From contig NZ_MUNR01000009.1 of NCBI RefSeq assembly GCF_002001045.1, positions 1 through 64,000 of the forward strand: a stretch of 64,000 nucleotides of DNA, written 5' to 3'. A program made the position numbers and the translations under genes. This DNA comes from Rhodanobacter sp. C01 (GTDB lineage: Bacteria > Pseudomonadota > Gammaproteobacteria > Xanthomonadales > Rhodanobacteraceae). The notes beneath the pieces are model-generated. The model worked only from the letters and a program-made list of their open reading frames with translations. It was not told the origin of the DNA and searched no databases. Positions 15,158-24,423 of this stretch are shown here, one piece after another (positions within the stretch are counted from its first letter, which is position 1; every line of letters starts with the position of its first letter).

Positions 15158-16075
15158 ATGGAACTTCGACATTTACGCTATTTCATCGCCGTCGCAGAGG
15201 AAGGCAGTCTGCTGACCGCCGCTCAGCGGCGACTCCATACGTCGCAGCCGTCGTTGAGCCGACAGATTCGCGACCTGGAATCCGAAGTCGGTGTGAAACT
15301 GCTGGAGCGCGGAGCACGTGGCGTGGCGCTCACAGCGGCCGGGAAAATTTTCCTCGATCACGCGCGCTTGGCGCTCATGCAAGTTGAAGCGGCCACCGAC
15401 GGTGCGCGGCGGGCGGCACAGCCGGAAAAGCTTGTGCTAGCCGTTGGTTTCCTTGCCGGGCAGGAAGTTGGGTGGTTACCCCACGCGCTCCGCATTATCC
15501 GGGAGGAGGCGCCGGAGGCCGAAATCACGCTGTGCAGTCAGTCCTCGCCGGAACTTGCCATCGGGCTGATGCGAGGCACGCTGGACGTTGCGTTTCTTCG
15601 CGCGGAGATTCAAACCGTTGGTCTGTCCTTCAAATTCCTGGCAAAGGAGCCGCTGATCGCCGTGCTGCCGGCGGATCATCGCCTGACGTCACGCAAAAAG
15701 ATCCGGCCGCAGGACCTCGCCAGCGAAATTTACGTCAGTTCGGCTAGAACATCTCCGGTATTGAAGTCAGTGATTCAGGATTACGCATCGAAGGTCGGGA
15801 TCACGCTCAAGGCCGAGTACGAAGGAGAGAACCTGCCGTCGGCAATGTCGCTCGTCACGTCCACGGGTGGCGTTACGCTTATTCCGCTGTATGCGCAAAA
15901 CATGCTTACACCGAATGTTGTTGCCCGGGCGCTTGACGGCGTGCCTCCGACGATTGATCTCACCTTGGGATACAACAATACGAATTCATCTCCCCTGCTC
16001 CTTCGGTTTTTATCTCGTGCCGACGAGTTGGTGGCAAACGTTCAAAACCAAAGCATCATCCGATATGCCGTCTAG
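15158..16075 (+). CDS. LysR family transcriptional regulator
   Basis: This 305-residue protein starts at ATG 15158 with AGGAGG 5 bases upstream. MELRHLRYFIAVAEEGSLLTAAQRRLHTSQPSLSRQI is a typical LysR DNA-binding start; the effector domain runs from about residue 90 with LAVGFLAGQEVGWLP. The sequence resembles the HcaR/BenM-like subgroup that often senses aromatic acids, though this is a weak inference. It is divergent from an alpha/beta hydrolase gene. Confidence 0.9.
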   Translation: MELRHLRYFIAVAEEGSLLTAAQRRLHTSQPSLSRQIRDLESEVGVKLLERGARGVALTAAGKIFLDHARLALMQVEAATDGARRAAQPEKLVLAVGFLAGQEVGWLPHALRIIREEAPEAEITLCSQSSPELAIGLMRGTLDVAFLRAEIQTVGLSFKFLAKEPLIAVLPADHRLTSRKKIRPQDLASEIYVSSARTSPVLKSVIQDYASKVGITLKAEYEGENLPSAMSLVTSTGGVTLIPLYAQNMLTPNVVARALDGVPPTIDLTLGYNNTNSSPLLLRFLSRADELVANVQNQSIIRYAV

Positions 16076-16091
16076 GTCATGGCTGCGCAAG

Positions 16092-16141
16092 ATCGCGGCC
16101 AGGTTCGCTTTCCCACGGCAGCAAGCGACCTGGCCCCGATA
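16092..16141. repeat. 53-bp palindromic repeat, complete but diverged copy 3
   Basis: GATCGCGGCCAGGTTCGCTTT and AAGCGACCTGGCCCCGAT flank CCCACGGCAGC. It lies directly between the LysR stop and the XAC0095-like fragment and shows paired arm changes (TCAC to TCGC against GTGA to GCGA). Confidence 0.8.
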
Positions 16142-16150
16142 GTTGCCCGG

Positions 16151-16426
16151 TTATTGATAGGTAGGCAACTGCCACGCAACATGCGACGCGTGGCCCGCGG
16201 GCAAACACGCTCGCCCCGCACGGTATGTGGCCCGCTCTTCGCCCACGCCAGTTTGCGAACGGCGCGTCGAATTGAGCCTCTGCGATTCCACCTGGCGCAT
16301 GATCGCGCGCACCGCCCTCGCGTCGTTGAAGATGGCATCCCCCAGCAACGACAGCGCGTGGTCGGCGAACTCGGCGTCATCACTGGCGATCACCACATCG
16401 CCATGGGCCACAATCATGTCGATCAT
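16151..16426 (-). pseudogene. Decayed or shortened duplicate of the XAC0095-like C-terminal domain
   Basis: Reading from ATG 16426 gives 91 residues: MIDMIVAHGDVVIASDDAEF... aligns with the C-terminal half of the next gene (AHGDVVVATDQADFADVTLSIMGDAILEHAERLQDIIREV), and both end in a QLPxY motif (QLPTYQ here, QLPAYH there). The N-terminal domain is missing, and upstream the resemblance stops. GAGG 9 bases before the ATG could allow translation, so it may be a short functional gene and not a remnant. It arose by tandem duplication on the same strand. Confidence 0.5.
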
Positions 16427-16570
16427 CCTGCCGCGCCTCTTCGGGCAAGCCAGGATTGAGCCGGGCAACGGCCGCTTCGAGGCTGTCCCTGGGGTGCCGT
16501 TCCAGAAATCCGAAACGACGGGATACGCACCAGCGAGCGCAACTGGCCCACTGGCGCGCGCGGGTGCCGG

Positions 16571-17278
16571 TTAATGGTAGGCGGGCAGTTGCCGCACGAT
16601 GGGCAACGCATTGCTCATCGGCACGCGCATGGGCAGCGCGAGGTAGCTGGCCTGCTCCTCGCACACGCCCGGTTTCGTGCCGTGCCGCTCATCGATCCGC
16701 TGCACGCAGTCGACCTCACGGATGATGTCTTGCAACCTCTCCGCATGCTCGAGGATGGCATCGCCCATGATCGAGAGCGTGACGTCGGCGAAATCCGCCT
16801 GATCGGTGGCGACCACCACGTCGCCATGGGCGCGGAGAATGTCGCCCAGCCGGGCCAGCTCGTCGATCTGATCCAGGGTGACGCCAGCCACGTAGCATTT
16901 GGGCGCCTCGTTCATCGCCGACCCGGCAAGTTCCGGCTCGGCGCCGTCCGTGTCCGCCGCTGCCGTGACGGCTGCCACTTTCGGCTCGGCGTCACGTTCG
17001 GCCTTGGCCTCGGGCGCAGGCGCTCTTTCGCCACGCTCGGCCGGCCAGGAGAGTTCGTCCAGCACTTGCCCGATCTGCTCCTCCAGCAACTCCATGCAGA
17101 TCGCCACCTCGCCCGGGCGAATCTCCGCATACCACTCCTGATCCTCGTCCGGCCTGCGCGGTCGCGCGAGGTTGGTCAGGAACCCCACGTATTCGCGTAG
17201 CTGCTTCAGCCGCAGCTGGCTGTCCTCCGGCAGAAAATAGCCCTTCGTTTCCAGATCTTCCGAATCGAACGTCGACAT
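16571..17278 (-). CDS. XAC0095-like protein of unknown function
   Basis: This 235-residue protein starts at ATG 17278 behind AGGAGG. The N-terminal domain (GYFLPEDSQLRLKQLREYVGFLTNLARPR, then ICMELLEEQIGQVLDELSWPA) resembles the small XAC0095 family of Xanthomonadales. A linker rich in Ala/Glu/Pro (about 85-130) is followed by a second domain (about 135-200) containing AHGDVVVATDQADFADVTLSIMGDAILEHAERLQDII, helical in appearance. There is no signal peptide or membrane segment. It is preceded by an unusually long, structured leader (17279-17540) and followed by a partial duplicate of its own C-terminus. The role is unknown. Confidence 0.7.
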   Translation of the reverse strand: MSTFDSEDLETKGYFLPEDSQLRLKQLREYVGFLTNLARPRRPDEDQEWYAEIRPGEVAICMELLEEQIGQVLDELSWPAERGERAPAPEAKAERDAEPKVAAVTAAADTDGAEPELAGSAMNEAPKCYVAGVTLDQIDELARLGDILRAHGDVVVATDQADFADVTLSIMGDAILEHAERLQDIIREVDCVQRIDERHGTKPGVCEEQASYLALPMRVPMSNALPIVRQLPAYH

Positions 17279-17540
17279 GGTCGCCTCCTAGTTCCATAGA
17301 AGTACCCGTCCACGGCATGACGACGGACGGGGTGTCGGGAGGTTCGAAACCGCACACAGCCGGCGGGCTTATTCCCCTTGCGGGTGTTGTATTCACCGCC
17401 CTCCCGACGCAGGCTTCGCGTCGGTTGTACCTACAAGGCGCGTAGGCACAAAAAACCCACCGGTTTGACGGAGGTGGGTACCGCTGTGTGGGGAGTTTCG
17501 ACGCTCCTTGCAAATGAGTCTGCTACGGCAATGGAGGGGT
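17279..17540 (-). ncRNA. Structured leader RNA with internal terminator-like hairpin
   Basis: Reading the minus strand towards the XAC0095-like gene, the first hairpin (CCCACC 17478-17473 pairing GGTGGG 17461-17456) is followed by six U (17455-17450), an intrinsic terminator. Next come hairpins at 17449-17427 and 17424-17404 (CCGACGC/GCGTCGG), and a hairpin at 17331-17305 (CCCGTCC/GGACGGG) just before the Shine-Dalgarno. CTCCCGAC at 17401-17408 can instead pair with GTCGGGAG at 17334-17341, which would break the 17404-17424 hairpin. This looks like an attenuator or sensing leader. The segment around GGGCGGTGAATACAACACCCGCAAGGGG recalls, from memory, leaders of Ash/Icd-like genes in P4-type elements. 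Confidence 0.55.
17449..17478 (-). terminator. Intrinsic terminator inside the leader
   Basis: A 6-bp GC-rich stem with a CCGTCAAACC-type loop is followed by TTTTTTG on the minus strand. It lies about 170 bases upstream of the XAC0095-like start codon, so it would cut transcription before that gene unless overridden. Confidence 0.7.
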
Positions 17541-17558
17541 GTCAAGATAGGCGTGGAT

Positions 17559-17586
17559 AAATGAACCTGACCCCGATAATTGTGGA
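17559..17586. repeat. Single arm of the 53-bp palindrome family, left of the rloC-like gene
   Basis: AAATGAACCTGACCCCGATAATTGTGG matches the right arm and tail of the complete copies. The partner arm is missing on this side; an oppositely oriented arm occurs after the nuclease gene at 20024. Confidence 0.7.
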
Positions 17587-17741
17587 ATCTGGAGTAAGTT
17601 CGGTCGTCAGTAGACGAGCCGTTTCTGCCCTACGAGACAATCAGTTGGTCGAAGGTGGAACGGTCTAATCTGGTGCCTACGGAACTAACAGCAGCGTAGA
17701 GTTCCTCGTCAAGGATCGGGGCACATTAAGGAAGGTGGAAA

Positions 17742-19976
17742 ATGATTGAATCAATAACCATTGCGAACACCGCAACTTTCGATCTCGTTCCCGAGGTGCT
17801 GAGCGGGCTATCTCAGTTCAATTTCTTGTTCGGCTCGAACGGCACCGGTAAAACCACGGTCAGCCGCATCATCGCAGATGAGAACAGCTTTCCAACCTGC
17901 AACGTGACATGGAAGGCAGGAACAAAACTGCAGACTATGGTCTATAACCACGATTTCGTAGAACGTAACTTCACGCAATCATCAGAGTTGAAAGGCGTCT
18001 TCACCTTGGGCGAAAAGCAGGTCGACACGCTCACCATGATTACTGGAGCGAAGGTCGAGCTCGACACTCTCACTAAGAAAATAGAAACGCTGACATTGGG
18101 GCTACAAGGAGCAGATGGCACAGGAGGAAAAGAGGGAGATTTGGCGACGCTTGAGGCTGGATTGAAAGACAAGTGCTGGGTTCAGAAGCAGAAGCACGAT
18201 GCAAAGCTCCAAGGTGCGTTTGAAGGCTATCGAGGAAGTTCGGAAAAATTCAAGGCGAAGGTCGTTCAAGAGTTGGCCGGGAACACCGCCGCACTTCTGA
18301 CATTGACGGAGTTGGAGAAGAAAGCGGAATCGGTGTTCGGTGCAGCGCCCACAGTTGAGCAAATAGTCCCGACGATTGAAGCAACAGAGCTTGTTGGATA
18401 CGAAATAAGCCAAATCTTGAAAAAGCGAGTCATCGGCAAGGGGGACGTCGATATCGCGGCGATGATCAAGAAACTGGGCAACAGCGATTGGGTCCTTGAG
18501 GGCCGTACCTTCTACGACGAGAATGGCAACGTATGTCCGTTTTGCCAACAGAGTACAACCGATGCCTTCACGAATAGTTTGAACGAGTATTTCGATGAGG
18601 CGTTTGTGACAGACAGCAAGGCTATCGACGATCTCGCCACCAACTATTCAACCGACGCAGCCCGACTTCAGCAGCAAATCGCGTCCATAATCGCAGCTCC
18701 GTCTCGGTTCCTTGATGTTGAAACGCTGAAAGCAGAAAAAGAGCTTCTCGACTCCAAAATTACAATTAACGTCCAACGGCTTGCGGGGAAGAAGAAAGAG
18801 GCGAGTCAGGTTATTGAACTTGAGTCACTGAGCAATGTCGTCACAGCGATCAAGGTGTTGATTGATTCCGCCAATACACTCGTTGCAGAACACAACAAGA
18901 TGGTCGCGAATCTCGTTCAAGAGCGTGGCACGCTGACGGCACAGGTATGGAAGTATGTGCTAGAGGAACTCAAAGTCGACCTCAGCGCATACAAGACCAC
19001 GCGAGATGGTTTGGACAAAGCGATCACTGCGATGAATCTCCAGGTCGCGGCAGCGATGACAGACAAAGCCGAAAAGACCAGTGAGATTCGCGAACTCGAA
19101 AAACAGACGACGAGCGTTCAGCCAACGATCGACGCGATCAATGTCCTCCTCTTGGCCTTCGGCTTTCGAGGTTTCTCGCTCGCGAAAACTGTAAGCGGAA
19201 CGTCCTACAAATTAATTCGACCCGATGGTTCAGATGCAAAGACGACACTGAGCGAAGGGGAAAAAACGTTCGTCACGTTCCTCTACTTCTACCATCTCCT
19301 GAAAGGTAGCGTCTCGGATAGTGGCATGACCGCTAACCGCATTGTTGTGTTTGACGATCCTGTTTCGAGCCTCGACAGCGACATCTTGTTCATAGTCGGC
19401 AGCCTCATCAAAGGATTGTTGGACGAAGTGCGCTTGGGGACCGGACACATCAAGCAAATCTTCGTGCTCACACACAACGTGTATTTCCACAAGGAGGTCA
19501 CATACAGTCGCAAGCGACCCAGCAACGGCGTGTTGAGTGAAGAGACCTTCTGGATCGTAAAAAGACCGGGGATGGTATCTAAATTAGTCCCGCAAACGAC
19601 CAACCCCATCAAAACTTCATACGAACTGCTGTGGGCAGAAGTTCGGAAGCCAGAGCGCTCGAATCTAGCCATTCAAAATACGCTTCGGCGCATTTTGGAG
19701 AACTATTTCAAGATTCTAGGTGGCATTGAACTGGATCAGCTCTGCGCGATGTTTGACGGAAAGGAGAAGATTATCTGCAAGTCCCTCTGTTCGTGGGTAC
19801 ATGATGGATCGCACTATGCCCACGACGATCTCTACGTTTCGATCGACGACTCGATGGTGGAGAGCTACCTCAAAGTCTTCAAAGATATCTTCGTCAAAGC
19901 GCGCCACATCGAACACTACAAGATGATGATGGGGGATGCATTTGTCGAGGAGCCTATGCAGGCCGCTATCACGTGA
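17742..19976 (+). CDS. RloC-like anticodon nuclease / AAA_13 ATPase with zinc-hook motif
   Basis: This 744-residue protein has a Walker A motif (GSNGTGKTT, residues 31-39), long helical segments, a CPFC motif (265-268) in the position of an SMC/Rad50-type zinc hook, an ABC signature LSEGEKT (503-509), Walker B VVFDDP with DD at 538-539, and the H-loop region LTHNVYFHKEV. The C-terminal part holds R649-x3-E653 (NTLRRILENYF) and His 687/691 (WVHDGSHYAHDD). PrrC uses an Arg-Glu-His triad spaced +4 and +36; here it is +4 and +38 (or +42). The family cleaves tRNA anticodons when DNA restriction is perturbed. Base composition is clearly lower in GC than its neighbours. The gene converges on a type IIG enzyme gene. 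RloC rather than PrrC is suggested by the CPFC hook. Confidence 0.8.
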   Translation: MIESITIANTATFDLVPEVLSGLSQFNFLFGSNGTGKTTVSRIIADENSFPTCNVTWKAGTKLQTMVYNHDFVERNFTQSSELKGVFTLGEKQVDTLTMITGAKVELDTLTKKIETLTLGLQGADGTGGKEGDLATLEAGLKDKCWVQKQKHDAKLQGAFEGYRGSSEKFKAKVVQELAGNTAALLTLTELEKKAESVFGAAPTVEQIVPTIEATELVGYEISQILKKRVIGKGDVDIAAMIKKLGNSDWVLEGRTFYDENGNVCPFCQQSTTDAFTNSLNEYFDEAFVTDSKAIDDLATNYSTDAARLQQQIASIIAAPSRFLDVETLKAEKELLDSKITINVQRLAGKKKEASQVIELESLSNVVTAIKVLIDSANTLVAEHNKMVANLVQERGTLTAQVWKYVLEELKVDLSAYKTTRDGLDKAITAMNLQVAAAMTDKAEKTSEIRELEKQTTSVQPTIDAINVLLLAFGFRGFSLAKTVSGTSYKLIRPDGSDAKTTLSEGEKTFVTFLYFYHLLKGSVSDSGMTANRIVVFDDPVSSLDSDILFIVGSLIKGLLDEVRLGTGHIKQIFVLTHNVYFHKEVTYSRKRPSNGVLSEETFWIVKRPGMVSKLVPQTTNPIKTSYELLWAEVRKPERSNLAIQNTLRRILENYFKILGGIELDQLCAMFDGKEKIICKSLCSWVHDGSHYAHDDLYVSIDDSMVESYLKVFKDIFVKARHIEHYKMMMGDAFVEEPMQAAIT

Positions 19977-20023
19977 GACGTGGCGAAACAGAATCGACTC
20001 ACATCATGCAGCGGTGCTGCAAA

Positions 20024-20057
20024 GATCGGGGTCAGGTTGAGCTGGCCCGGATAGTCT
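20024..20057. repeat. Degenerate copy of the 53-bp palindrome family, right of the rloC-like gene
   Basis: GATCGGGGTCAGGTT matches the left arm and is followed by a shortened right arm (GAGCTGGCCCGGATAG). It sits between the convergent stops of the nuclease and restriction enzyme genes. Confidence 0.65.
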
Positions 20058-20070
20058 CACAAGGAAAAAT

Positions 20071-23000
20071 CTAAATATTGTCTTCCATCAGCGTGATCTC
20101 GTCGCTGTTCAGACCGTATAGTTCATGGACCAATGCGTCGATCTGGCGGTCCAAAGCGGCGCATTTGCGAATGGCAACGTCGCGGGCGTGACCACTGGCG
20201 GCAGCTTCCTGCTGTTTGGCATCGCACATCTTCTCCACGAGAGAAACCATGTGATCGTGCAACGTCCTGTCCCTGAGGTTAGACATGTCGATCCGTCGGA
20301 TATTCAGACGCGAAATACTGTTCCAAAAATACTCGTAGATGCCGCCACTCTTGAGCTTGCCGATGCTGCGAAAGCGGAAAGTTAGTAGTCGCGAGTTAAG
20401 CAATCCAAGCAGGTACAAGAGATTTTCCTGCTGACCATTGTCGAAAAGGACAGTTGTATCCGTCAGGCCTAGAAATGTGTCATCCGCGTCGAGCGCGAAA
20501 CGGTTTCCGGTAGCCAGATACGGACACAGGATACGTTTGCGCTGCCCGTAATGCTCCGCATGCAATGGCCATGTGTATTGCCACCATTCGCAGTTGCCGC
20601 GCTGATAGGCGGCGCGCTTCTTCAATTCAGCATCGTGCACGGTCAGGTGCGCACGCACCCCGGCAGAAAGCTGTGCGAAGTCGTCTACGCGATGCGGGTA
20701 TAACAAGTATTCGTCGCGATCTTCGATGCGGTAGCGCTGAATGTCGGTATTGGTGGCTCGTTTGAACCAATGTCCGGCGGGTACCTTCCAGTCGCGAATA
20801 TCGGCAGCGCTGCGCTCACCGAACACATCGTTGCGGCCTGTTTGCATACCTTGCCCTATCAGCAGCACTTCGCCCAGTGGCACGCCGGCGGCGTCGATCT
20901 TGTCGTTCAGTGCGGCGACCTGCGGCGACGTCAGCGCCCATGGCTCGGCGCCTAAACGGGCTTGTGGCACATGCATCGCTGCAAACTGTTGCGGATCGTG
21001 CAGTGCTATGTCCAACGGCGGCTCCGGCGGGTTGTCCAGCAGATGTTTGCGCACATCGATGTCTGATGGGGCACCGCCGATATTCAGCGTGACAATGCAG
21101 GTGGTAATGCCGACTTTTTTGAAGATTAGCGTGTTACGAAAATCGACGATTTGCCCTATCGCGGTTTTGTCCAGCAAATAGATTCGTAGCTTGTTGGCCT
21201 TGAATGCTTCTAAAAACGCCCGCGACACAATGAACGACACTCCATCACGCGAAAGCTGTACGGCACGCGCGAGGAAATAAAACAGAAGATCGGTCTTGTC
21301 GTTGTGGATCAGCGGATAGGCGGTCTTGATCGCGACCAGCTTATGATCACCCTTGCCCCAAGTGTCATCAATGTTGAGATACGGAGGATTGCCAACGATG
21401 GCGTCGAATCCCCCGGCGCGCATCACGGCTGGGAAGACGGTTTCGAAGTCGAGTGGATTCAGCGCATGTTCTTCCTGTGGCGAGAGTGCTAGTAGGCCAG
21501 CCACGTCCCACCCAATCAGGCTGTTCCCGCAGACAATATTGTTACCGAGATCGGGCAGAAGCTTCTTCAGATTACTGTCGCGCGCATAGTCGAGTTGATA
21601 TTGGCGTGCGCTGGTGGCGCGCTCATCTTCAAGCAATTTTAAGAACAACGACAGTTGCGCCACTTCCACAGCCTGCTGATCGATATCCACGCCATAGATG
21701 TTGTTCTGCAAAATCGCGCGACGCTGGGCCAGCGACAGCCGCCAGCGACTGTCCTCGGTACGTATACATCCGTCTTTCTTAGCCTGCTTGTCGTGTTCGG
21801 GTCGGTTGTACCAGTCGGCGTGGTAGCGCAACAGCGCGTCGAACACTCCTAGCAGGAAGCTGCCGGAGCCGCAGGCGATGTCAGCAAACCGAAGTTTGGC
21901 GATATGCACCGGTGACTTACCTGAGATCTGCCTGCCCACGGTGTGTTCGACGATGTAGCGCACAATGTATTCGGGTGTGTAATAGACGCCACCTGCCTTG
22001 CGCACCTCCGGCTTTTCCTCGACGAAAACCCGCTGTGCAGTGGCGCGAATCACGCTGCCTAGGAATCGCTCATAAATCGAGCCGAGAATATGGATGGGGA
22101 TGGCATCAAAGTTGTACGGTGAGTTCTCAGAAGAAAGCCGCTCGCAAATGTCAGCGAATACCTCGTTGTCTACTGCGAAGCCAGCGTCATCAAGTATCGG
22201 CAATTGCTTGAACACGATGCCGTTGTAGATGTTGTCTAGCCGCCGGCTGGCGGTGGCAAAATCCGCCCATGCGCCCTTGCCCTTGCCGAAGTCAGAGAGT
22301 CGTATCTCCGTCTCGATTTCTTTGTCTTCCAGAAAACGCAGGAATACGAGTCGATCCAGTGTGCGCTGCACGATTCTGGTAAGGGTTTCGGAGTCGAGAC
22401 CGTGGTCGGCTTTCTTGAACGCCTTGGCTAACGCGGTGCGATGTTCCTCCAGTTCGGCGAGAAAGCTAACGTCTACCGCTTGGTAGCCGCCCTTGAAGAG
22501 GCCGCGCTGCTTGGCTCCACCTCTGGGCTTTGGCAATTCATCGATGCGCCGCTGGTACGAACCATCCTCATGCGCTTCGCGCGAGAACAGCCAGTAGAAC
22601 TCGGCGAACTTGGCCGGGTCACGCCAGTCGGTGTAGTGCCAGTGCTTGTAGACCTGATCCAGCGCGCCGTCCGGGTGCGGGCGGCGGCGGCAGTCGAGCA
22701 CATGGATCTTCTCGAAATCGGTGAGTACGGACAGGGGCGTGTTGGCGCTATAGCCATAACGCCAAGTCTGGAAGTGCGCATCTTCGTTGCGATCCAGGTT
22801 AACGCTTGGTTTCTTCGCCTCGACGAAAAAGCGCACATCGTGGAAGTTGGGCTTCAGGTAGAACGCATAATCGGCGCGTTTTTGCGACTGCGACCGCGCC
22901 ACGGTCACACTGCGTTCGACCTTGACTTCCTGTTCATACGGATTGTGTTCGCGTTCGTGGTCGACGTCCCAACCGAGCGCCTTCAGCATCGGATCGATGA

Positions 23001-23118
23001 AATCCTTGCGCGCTTCGGCTTCTTGGTAGCCGGGTTGCAAGTAGGTGGATGCGTGTTTGCCAAATCGTTCGACCAATTCCAGCACGCGTGTGTGAGCTTG
23101 ATCAAACAGAGTGGTCAT
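20071..23118 (-). CDS. Type IIG restriction-modification enzyme (Eco57I-like)
   Basis: One 1015-residue chain combines nuclease, methylase and target recognition. Near residues 85-105 RADYAFYLK...RFFVEAKKP supplies a PD-(D/E)XK nuclease core (D, E-x-K). GGVYYTPEYIVRYIV leads into the methylase: FADIACGSGSFLLG is motif I, GVDIDQQAVEVAQL a cofactor-binding segment, and GNPPYLN is motif IV of an adenine-N6 methyltransferase. The last 350 residues (from about AALNDKIDAAGVPLG) match TaqI-type C-terminal recognition domains. It cuts unmethylated sites and protects host DNA without a separate methylase. It starts at ATG 23118. The recognition sequence is unknown. The convergent neighbour is a RloC-like nuclease. 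Confidence 0.9.
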   Translation of the reverse strand: MTTLFDQAHTRVLELVERFGKHASTYLQPGYQEAEARKDFIDPMLKALGWDVDHEREHNPYEQEVKVERSVTVARSQSQKRADYAFYLKPNFHDVRFFVEAKKPSVNLDRNEDAHFQTWRYGYSANTPLSVLTDFEKIHVLDCRRRPHPDGALDQVYKHWHYTDWRDPAKFAEFYWLFSREAHEDGSYQRRIDELPKPRGGAKQRGLFKGGYQAVDVSFLAELEEHRTALAKAFKKADHGLDSETLTRIVQRTLDRLVFLRFLEDKEIETEIRLSDFGKGKGAWADFATASRRLDNIYNGIVFKQLPILDDAGFAVDNEVFADICERLSSENSPYNFDAIPIHILGSIYERFLGSVIRATAQRVFVEEKPEVRKAGGVYYTPEYIVRYIVEHTVGRQISGKSPVHIAKLRFADIACGSGSFLLGVFDALLRYHADWYNRPEHDKQAKKDGCIRTEDSRWRLSLAQRRAILQNNIYGVDIDQQAVEVAQLSLFLKLLEDERATSARQYQLDYARDSNLKKLLPDLGNNIVCGNSLIGWDVAGLLALSPQEEHALNPLDFETVFPAVMRAGGFDAIVGNPPYLNIDDTWGKGDHKLVAIKTAYPLIHNDKTDLLFYFLARAVQLSRDGVSFIVSRAFLEAFKANKLRIYLLDKTAIGQIVDFRNTLIFKKVGITTCIVTLNIGGAPSDIDVRKHLLDNPPEPPLDIALHDPQQFAAMHVPQARLGAEPWALTSPQVAALNDKIDAAGVPLGEVLLIGQGMQTGRNDVFGERSAADIRDWKVPAGHWFKRATNTDIQRYRIEDRDEYLLYPHRVDDFAQLSAGVRAHLTVHDAELKKRAAYQRGNCEWWQYTWPLHAEHYGQRKRILCPYLATGNRFALDADDTFLGLTDTTVLFDNGQQENLLYLLGLLNSRLLTFRFRSIGKLKSGGIYEYFWNSISRLNIRRIDMSNLRDRTLHDHMVSLVEKMCDAKQQEAAASGHARDVAIRKCAALDRQIDALVHELYGLNSDEITLMEDNI

Positions 23119-23220
23119 GTTGGTACCAAAAGAAAGGAGGTAGGTTTATTTATCTGTTTCGCACTGGACCGACTTGCGTAGAGGGTAAACATTTTCCCGT
23201 GTGCCAAACCCGGTGTCCCC

Positions 23221-24423
23221 TCACCCCTCCAAACAATCAAACCGCCGATCCGCCTCCACCTCCGCCTCATAGTCCACATCCGCCCGATCAAACCCGAACA
23301 GCTGCAAAAACTCGTGCTTGTAGCCGGCGTAGTCGGTGATCTGCTTGAGGTTTTCGGTGGTGACTGTAGGCCAGAGGGTTTTGCAGGGGATCTGCACGTC
23401 GTCGCGCAGTTCCCAGTCGTCCAGCCGCAGGCGGCCTTCGTCGTCGGTGGGTGCAGCTTTGCCATCAGCACGATAGAGGCGGTCATGGAACAGGCGGTTG
23501 GCCTGCTCGATCGGATTTTCGTGGATGCCCTTCTCCTTCATGATCTTGAAGGCGATGGACACGTACAGCGGGATCACCGGGATGGCGGCGCTGGCCTGGG
23601 TGACGACGGACTTCATCACGCCGACGTAGGCTTCGAGGCCGGGGTGGCGGCTGCGCAGTTGTTTGGCGGTGTTGTCGAGGTGCTGCTTGGCCTGGCCCAG
23701 GGTGCCGTGCCAGTACATCGGCCAGGTGATCTCGGTGCCGATGTAGCTGTAGGCGACGGTCTTGGCGTGCTCGGCCAGCACGCCGGCGGCGCTCAGCGCG
23801 TCGATCCACAGCGCCCAGTCCTCGCCGCCCATCACGGTGACAGTGTCCTTGATTTCCTGCTCGGTGGCCGGCTCGATGGTGGCCTCGATCACGGTGTCCT
23901 TGTTGGTGTCGACCGAGGTGTTGGTGAACGGCTGGCCGATGGTCTTGAGCGCCGAGCGCACCACTTCGCCGGTGTCCGGCAGCTTGCGCACGGGCGAGGC
24001 CAGCGAATAGACCACCAGGTCGATCGGGCCGCCCATTTCGTTCTTGATGATCTCGATCGCGCGCGCGCGGGTTTCGTTGGCGAATGCGTCGCCGTTGATC
24101 GACTTGGCAATCAGGCCGGCCTGCTTGGCGGCCTTGTCGAACGCGGCGGAGTTGTACCAGCCGGCGGTGCCGGTCTTCTCCGTGCTGCTGGGCTTCTCGA
24201 AGAACACGCCGAGCGTGGCCGCGCCGTAGCCGAACGCGGCGGTGATGCGCGATGCCAGGCCGTAGCCGGTGGAGGCGCCGATCACCAGCACGCGCTTTGG
24301 GCCCTTGCCTGCTGCGTGGCCGGCAGCCTGGGTGACCTTGATCTGGTCGAGCACGTTGTGCTCGCAACCGACCGGATGGGCGGTGATGCAGATGAATCCG
24401 CGGACTTTGGGCTTGATGATCAC
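23221..24423 (-). CDS. fabV: Enoyl-ACP/trans-2-enoyl-CoA reductase FabV
   Basis: The start is GTG 24423 ([21 protein letters not shown]) with AGGAG 8 bases upstream, giving 400 residues, the normal length. FabV reduces enoyl-ACP in the last step of each fatty acid elongation cycle and is insensitive to triclosan. Visible features are the cofactor loop [38 protein letters not shown], and the catalytic Tyr-x8-Lys in [14 protein letters not shown]. The C-terminal [17 protein letters not shown] is strongly conserved. It precedes the type IIG gene on the same strand with 102 bases between. Confidence 0.95.

Follow-up and report, generated by a model that had tools for sequence, protein, structure and literature searches.

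Within the window, which is the whole stretch of 64,000 nucleotides of Rhodanobacter sp. C01 DNA that we analyzed, an RloC-like gene occupies positions 17742..19976 on the plus strand and encodes a protein of 744 aa from an ATG start. This protein matches the Pfam family PF13166 (AAA_13) over residues 10–717 with 615 bits and the PADLOC model PDC-S06 over its full length (residues 1–734) with 946 bits, and given these two scores the 744-aa frame is not a chance one. The PADLOC PrrC model also matches residues 448–720 (2.6e-11). A purine-rich stretch is found just before the ATG, and a promoter scan of 17280–23300 returned no sigma-70-like site (3.3 in shuffles). The neighbor, at 20071..23118 on the minus strand and therefore convergent, is a type IIG-like restriction-modification (R-M) gene of 1015 aa with HSDR_N, N6/Eco57I methylase and TaqI_C matches. 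Both genes are held in a variable slot that spans 17584..23219.

The ABC-ATPase motif set of RloC is present in full. Namely, a script count on the translation located Walker A (GSNGTGKTT, residues 31–39) at 17832..17858, an ABC signature-like LSEGEKT (residues 503–509) at 19248..19268 and Walker B (VVFDDP, residues 535–540) at 19344..19361, while LTHN (residues 576–579; 19467..19478, like the others on the plus strand) provides the switch-histidine position at H578. The first-pass annotation had reported the open reading frame, Walker A, LSEGEKT and VVFDDP, and the count agrees with it; for Walker A, GSNGTGKT covers residues 31–38 and T39 was that annotation's addition. Conservation was scored in 161 distinct full-length proteins, a set that counts the window protein and is not a random sample. 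The genome-contig and viral-contig scans behind it were each limited to the best 80 loci; before counting, 18 partial loci and 10 identical copies were left out, and 3 more loci gave no match. Walker A residues G31, N33, G36 and K37, signature residues S504 and G506, Walker B residues D538, D539 and P540, and H578 are each kept in 161/161 sequences.

The ATPase domain is split by an insert that carries a putative zinc-hook cysteine pair, CPFC (residues 265–268; 18534..18545, plus strand), between Walker A and the signature and close to residue 270.5, the midpoint between the two. Both cysteines are present in 160 of the 161 sequences (C265 in 160, C268 in all). Two helix-like arms flank this hook on the plus strand. 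The first, at about residues 90–195 (18009..18326), contains few prolines and shows a hydrophobic periodicity of 3.5–3.6 in most windows; the second, at about residues 286–465 (18597..19136), is proline-poor and mostly periodic, with windows starting at 314 and 342 lacking the periodicity. The region of about 200–270 between the arms, which holds the hook, has no 3.5–3.6 periodicity. These arm periodicities are a proxy, calculated without a shuffle control from alignment A4, which excludes the plasmid- and phage-record rows. In a profile search, solved coiled coils matched about residues 278–469 weakly, that is, the second arm only. Judged from the sequence, the pattern of the insert fits a Rad50-like hairpin.

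The C-terminal part of the protein, at about residues 640–731 (19659..19934, plus strand), is a predicted nuclease region that aligns with the nuclease region of PrrC. For this comparison, the PADLOC PrrC model matched 10 of 274 genomes, and 8 of the 10 proteins were aligned; hhalign of the window family against these 8 PrrC proteins gave 97.4 with an E-value of 1.2e-11 across residues 486–731. In the profile comparison, the RxxxE motif and the SH histidine of the window family are in register with PrrC, such that R649 (19686..19688; R in 157/161) and E653 (19698..19700; E in 154/161) lie opposite the RxxxE arginine and glutamate, and H691 (19812..19814; H in 125/161) lies opposite the invariant PrrC histidine, all three codons being on the plus strand. 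RxxxE occurs at residue 649 and a second time at residue 164. The first-pass annotation had proposed an Arg-Glu-His site made of R649, E653 and either H687 or H691, with spacings of 4 from arginine to glutamate and 42 from arginine to H691. These spacings are correct and the arginine, the glutamate and H691 stand, whereas H687 is rejected as a catalytic residue by conservation. Because position 687 is mostly asparagine (114/161) and histidine in just 20/161, H691 is the candidate histidine. The PrrC residues given there, R320, E324 and H356, agree with the published ones (PMC2610378), and PrrC activity is described as abolished by substitutions of R320, E324 or H356 (review PMC3014915). For the Geobacillus kaustophilus RloC, the corresponding triad is R692, E696 and H737, and alanine at any of these positions is reported to abolish activity (PMC2610378).

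Among the 98 full-length sequences with at least 34% identity, the window protein counted, R-E-H is found in 97 and CxxC in 97. Split by identity to the window protein, R-E-H is kept in 20/21 sequences at 50% or more, in 77/77 at 34–50% and in only 27/63 below 34%, the last figure being due to a mostly viral branch that lacks the histidine. By source, R-E-H at 649/653/691 is found in 84/85 genome, 10/10 plasmid, 0/2 phage-record and 30/64 viral-contig sequences; H691 is missing in 36/161, and 35 of these 36 are phage-record or viral-contig copies. A further histidine near the C-terminus, H725, is present in 160/161, above H691, and is kept in the branch without H691 as well. The first-pass annotation had also considered that a search might group the protein with AAA_13 members that are not nucleases. 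The AAA_13 placement holds, but the triad in 97/98 closer sequences and the PrrC triads in register speak against a group of this sort. Sequence searches of solved structures with the protein and with alignment A1 matched mainly ATPase heads and coiled coils and gave no convincing match to the nuclease region. Matches of the PrrC profile to two CNOT1 chains in the nuclease part (E 0.0009 and 0.0098) were treated as chance.

All 8 aligned PrrC proteins have Rx6H at the histidine, a form of the Rx4-6H motif described for HEPN RNases (PMC3710099). The HEPN Rx4-6H motif is absent from the window protein, in which the possible arginine positions 684–686 are S, W and V; the arginine of PrrC is replaced by Ser684, so that the triad is recovered and the Rx4-6H motif is not. 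This difference had not been noted in the first-pass annotation. At 34% identity or more, position 684 is arginine in 1 and serine in 85 of 98 sequences, and below 34% it is arginine in 22 and serine in 20 of 63. Since serine takes the place of the HEPN arginine in 85/98 closer sequences, the active site may differ from that of PrrC. We tentatively raise, as a rather unlikely extension, that these proteins form a widespread zinc-hook tRNase branch in which the HEPN arginine has become serine and catalysis would need no more than R649, E653 and H691; the RNA target might then also differ from those of known RloC and PrrC.

The sequences without the histidine are concentrated in one FastTree clade (support 0.83), a phage and viral-contig branch in which 33 of 34 members lack it (L029, L030 and viral contigs such as L134–L139, L141–L152, L154–L159, L178, L181, L182, L186 and L190). 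Their cysteine pair and ATPase motifs are kept, and the arginine or glutamate is altered in some. Such copies may be inactive, rebuilt, or decoys or regulators. The homologue in Streptococcus phage Javan105, annotated as ACNase RloC by its depositors, has lost the histidine and carries aspartate for the glutamate. In L029 (1692–3449) and L030 (2110–3905), the gene is preceded by two small genes that match neither Pfam nor PADLOC models and by a short HTH_17 gene, an order that suggests a conserved phage operon.

At the level of the locus, the slot is bordered on the left by an XAC0095-family gene (16571–17278) and on the right by a gene that we take to be fabV. Ten same-genus regions taken beside the right-hand border gene served as the comparison set. 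Both borders are found in 5 of the 10 (L202, L203, L204, L208 and L210), with roughly 3.4 to 9.7 kb between them, and the 17.6–23.2 kb part of the window has no blastn match (1e-10) in the ten regions, one of which ends at a contig end. Nine stop-to-stop ORFs from L202, L203, L210 and the one-border L209 were scanned against defense models with a cutoff of 1e-8. Four of the 9 matched, as OLD/AriA-like and NDT_II-A (both in L202), bSEFIR (L210) and DUF626_VIII (L209), and the remaining five did not. The locus is thus a variable slot with partly defense-like cargo. Because the 5 related regions with both borders carry other cargo, the comparison supports horizontal gain of the RloC-like gene into this slot. 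The GC content of the gene is 50.2%, against 55.7% for the neighbor at 20071–23118 and 62.0% for the window, and this low value, read as a sign of gain in the first-pass annotation, is backed by the variable slot. A DNA search recovered related copies of the left-border XAC0095-family gene elsewhere in its own genome and in the genus, and a query of 15158–17278 matched somewhere in 21 of 40 genomes of the genus; perhaps the XAC0095-family copies mark insertion sites.

Relatives of the protein are spread widely. With tblastn, 9 phage records and 278 plasmid records were matched, and in 105 of the plasmid records the match covers 80% or more of the query. The closest full-length genome match, at 84% identity, is in a Nitrospirota bin, a partial match (residues 408–737) at 87% is in a Verrucomicrobiales bin, and 74% matches occur in Deltaproteobacteria, Nitrosomonas and Chlorobiota bins. 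Many of the genome loci are metagenome bins whose taxonomy can be wrong; if the bins are correctly assigned, the gene travels across phyla. Within its own bacterial family, a relative at E 1e-10 is found in 14 of 197 genomes, its own genome counted. In one same-genus genome (L007 and L018), the copy is split into two frames covering residues 1–205 and 202–736 and is for this reason probably a broken gene.

We also compared the surroundings of the relatives. A type IIG match flanks the gene in 2 of 80 genome loci (L082 and L106) and in none of L032–L041, some of the flanks being short, and the idea that the two genes form a constant pair was rejected on this count and because, of 197 genomes, they co-occur in its own genome only. 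The underlying tblastn neighbor screen, which used R-M and other genes as its 15 queries, is weak, with any match in just 16/80 loci. Around the plasmid and phage relatives, an R-M or methylase gene is annotated in 7 of 12 annotated regions, and one region carries no annotation. A Pfam scan covered 94 of 134 nearest neighbors (50 of 73 loci) and 90 distant ORFs, with ORFs called by length and overlap only. Among the families listed for the nearest neighbors, those of restriction, helicase and nSTAND proteins are repeated, the commonest in 4 to 6 of the 94 (DUF2130 in 6, and Methylase_S, MTES_1575 nuclease and nSTAND3 in 4 each). No listed family exceeds 2 among the 90 distant ORFs, and DUF2130 occurs there in at most 1; the families listed are the best 25 of 105 and 115, and single control matches can be hidden. 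In L027, L042 and L086, the only three such cases found, a DUF2130 gene lies directly next to the RloC-like gene and runs in the same direction, with open-frame gaps of 96, 1 and −15 bases.

Taken together, the family matches, the PrrC-aligned C-terminus and the kept R-E-H and CxxC residues bear out the RloC-like identity proposed in the first-pass annotation, and we put the probability that the window protein belongs to the RloC family at about 75%; its nuclease function is a prediction from these likenesses. The depositors' RloC label on the Javan105 homologue points the same way. Weighing against the assignment are the serine at the HEPN arginine position, the R-E-H count of 27/63 below 34% identity and the solved-structure searches, which gave no convincing match to the nuclease region. 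By analogy with the RloC literature, two protomers would pair through zinc at the CPFC hook, and the ATPase head would sense the ends of DNA or DNA that a phage has damaged. The C-terminal RNase could then be switched on by ATP turnover; it is this RNase that would cut certain tRNAs, perhaps excising the wobble base, and the resulting halt in translation would stop phage growth. The gene would have been gained into a slot that holds other defense-like genes in relatives, adjoining the type IIG gene without forming an operon with it. Linear DNA is reported to activate G. kaustophilus RloC, and the Acinetobacter baylyi RloC is described as activated by DNA-break inducers, with tRNA-Glu and tRNA-Gln as targets (PMC3874168). 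A survey of Pseudomonas speaks against a defense role, since RloC there went together with susceptibility to phage (PMC12447246).

Other explanations start from the same observations. The protein could be an RloC relative with a C-terminal RNase directed at some other RNA, or at tRNA outside the anticodon loop, with the defense otherwise alike. The varied targets attributed to HEPN-type RNases (PMC3710099) and the serine at the HEPN arginine position in 85/98 closer sequences point in this direction, but the triad essential in both PrrC and RloC is kept in 97/98 of the same sequences, and we consider such a change of target unlikely. It is highly improbable that the protein works like Lamassu LmuB, as an SMC-like sensor of DNA with its effector in a separate protein. 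The partial LmuB model matches (best 3e-15, residues 243–589) and the hook motif in the insert would agree with a sensor of this sort; however, the LmuB score is 54 bits against 946 bits for PDC-S06, and the window protein has a PrrC-like C-terminal region of its own with a kept triad. Moreover, there is no dominant partner around the relatives, the top listed family, DUF2130, occurring in 6 of 94 nearest neighbors (50 loci). For the three proteins scanned from the region of the window protein, LmuA is not among the families listed (the best 25 of 68 for one of them).

The assignment to RloC is also compatible with a role for the neighboring type IIG enzyme, which might silence the protein and release it when a phage inactivates the enzyme, as for PrrC. 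The adjacency of the two genes in one slot favors such guarding, as do the R-M or methylase genes in 7/12 regions of plasmid and phage relatives and the precedents of PrrC, whose guard is a type I enzyme, and of 8 of 73 RloC genes that were linked to type I or III systems in a 2008 survey (PMC2610378). Yet the genes are convergent and share no operon, a type IIG match flanks just 2/80 genome loci, and in the family 14/197 genomes have an RloC relative and 4/197 the type IIG gene (E 1e-60), its own genome counted in both, and this one genome alone has both. Since A. baylyi RloC is moreover reported to be activated even without its R-M genes (PMC3874168), we regard this arrangement as quite improbable.

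As an RloC-like system, the locus is of a known and ordinary kind, and its notable point is an active site that departs from PrrC where the HEPN arginine would stand. It adds a clear RloC-like gene, intact and lodged in a variable slot, and points to H691 as the candidate catalytic histidine, and the kept residues show which mutants are worth making. RloC-like genes are common in genome surveys, and in the papers considered here only two RloC proteins are biochemically tested (PMC2610378, PMC3874168, PMC12322248, PMC12447246); the Streptococcus thermophilus RloC is listed as not tested (PMC12322248).

The nearest model, PDC-S06, matches over the full length and carries the label of a phage defense candidate only, and it appears as a table entry in published work. 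For RloC of G. kaustophilus and A. baylyi ADP1, the likeness was set by published descriptions and consists of an ATPase head interrupted by an insert with CX2C and a C-terminal R-E-H, and at 744 aa the window protein falls within the 658–897 aa given for RloC (PMC2610378). In detail the numbering differs: the arginine-to-histidine distance is 42 against 45 in G. kaustophilus RloC (PMC2610378), the hook cysteines are at 265/268 against C291 and C314, and the G. kaustophilus numbering (401 from hook cysteine to arginine together with 45 from arginine to histidine) is found in 0/161 sequences. PrrC shares the ATPase motifs and a C-terminal triad in register with that of the window protein. However, PrrC is about half the size (341–416 aa against 744 aa) and has no hook insert, and where it carries Rx6H at the histidine, the window protein has serine in place of the arginine.
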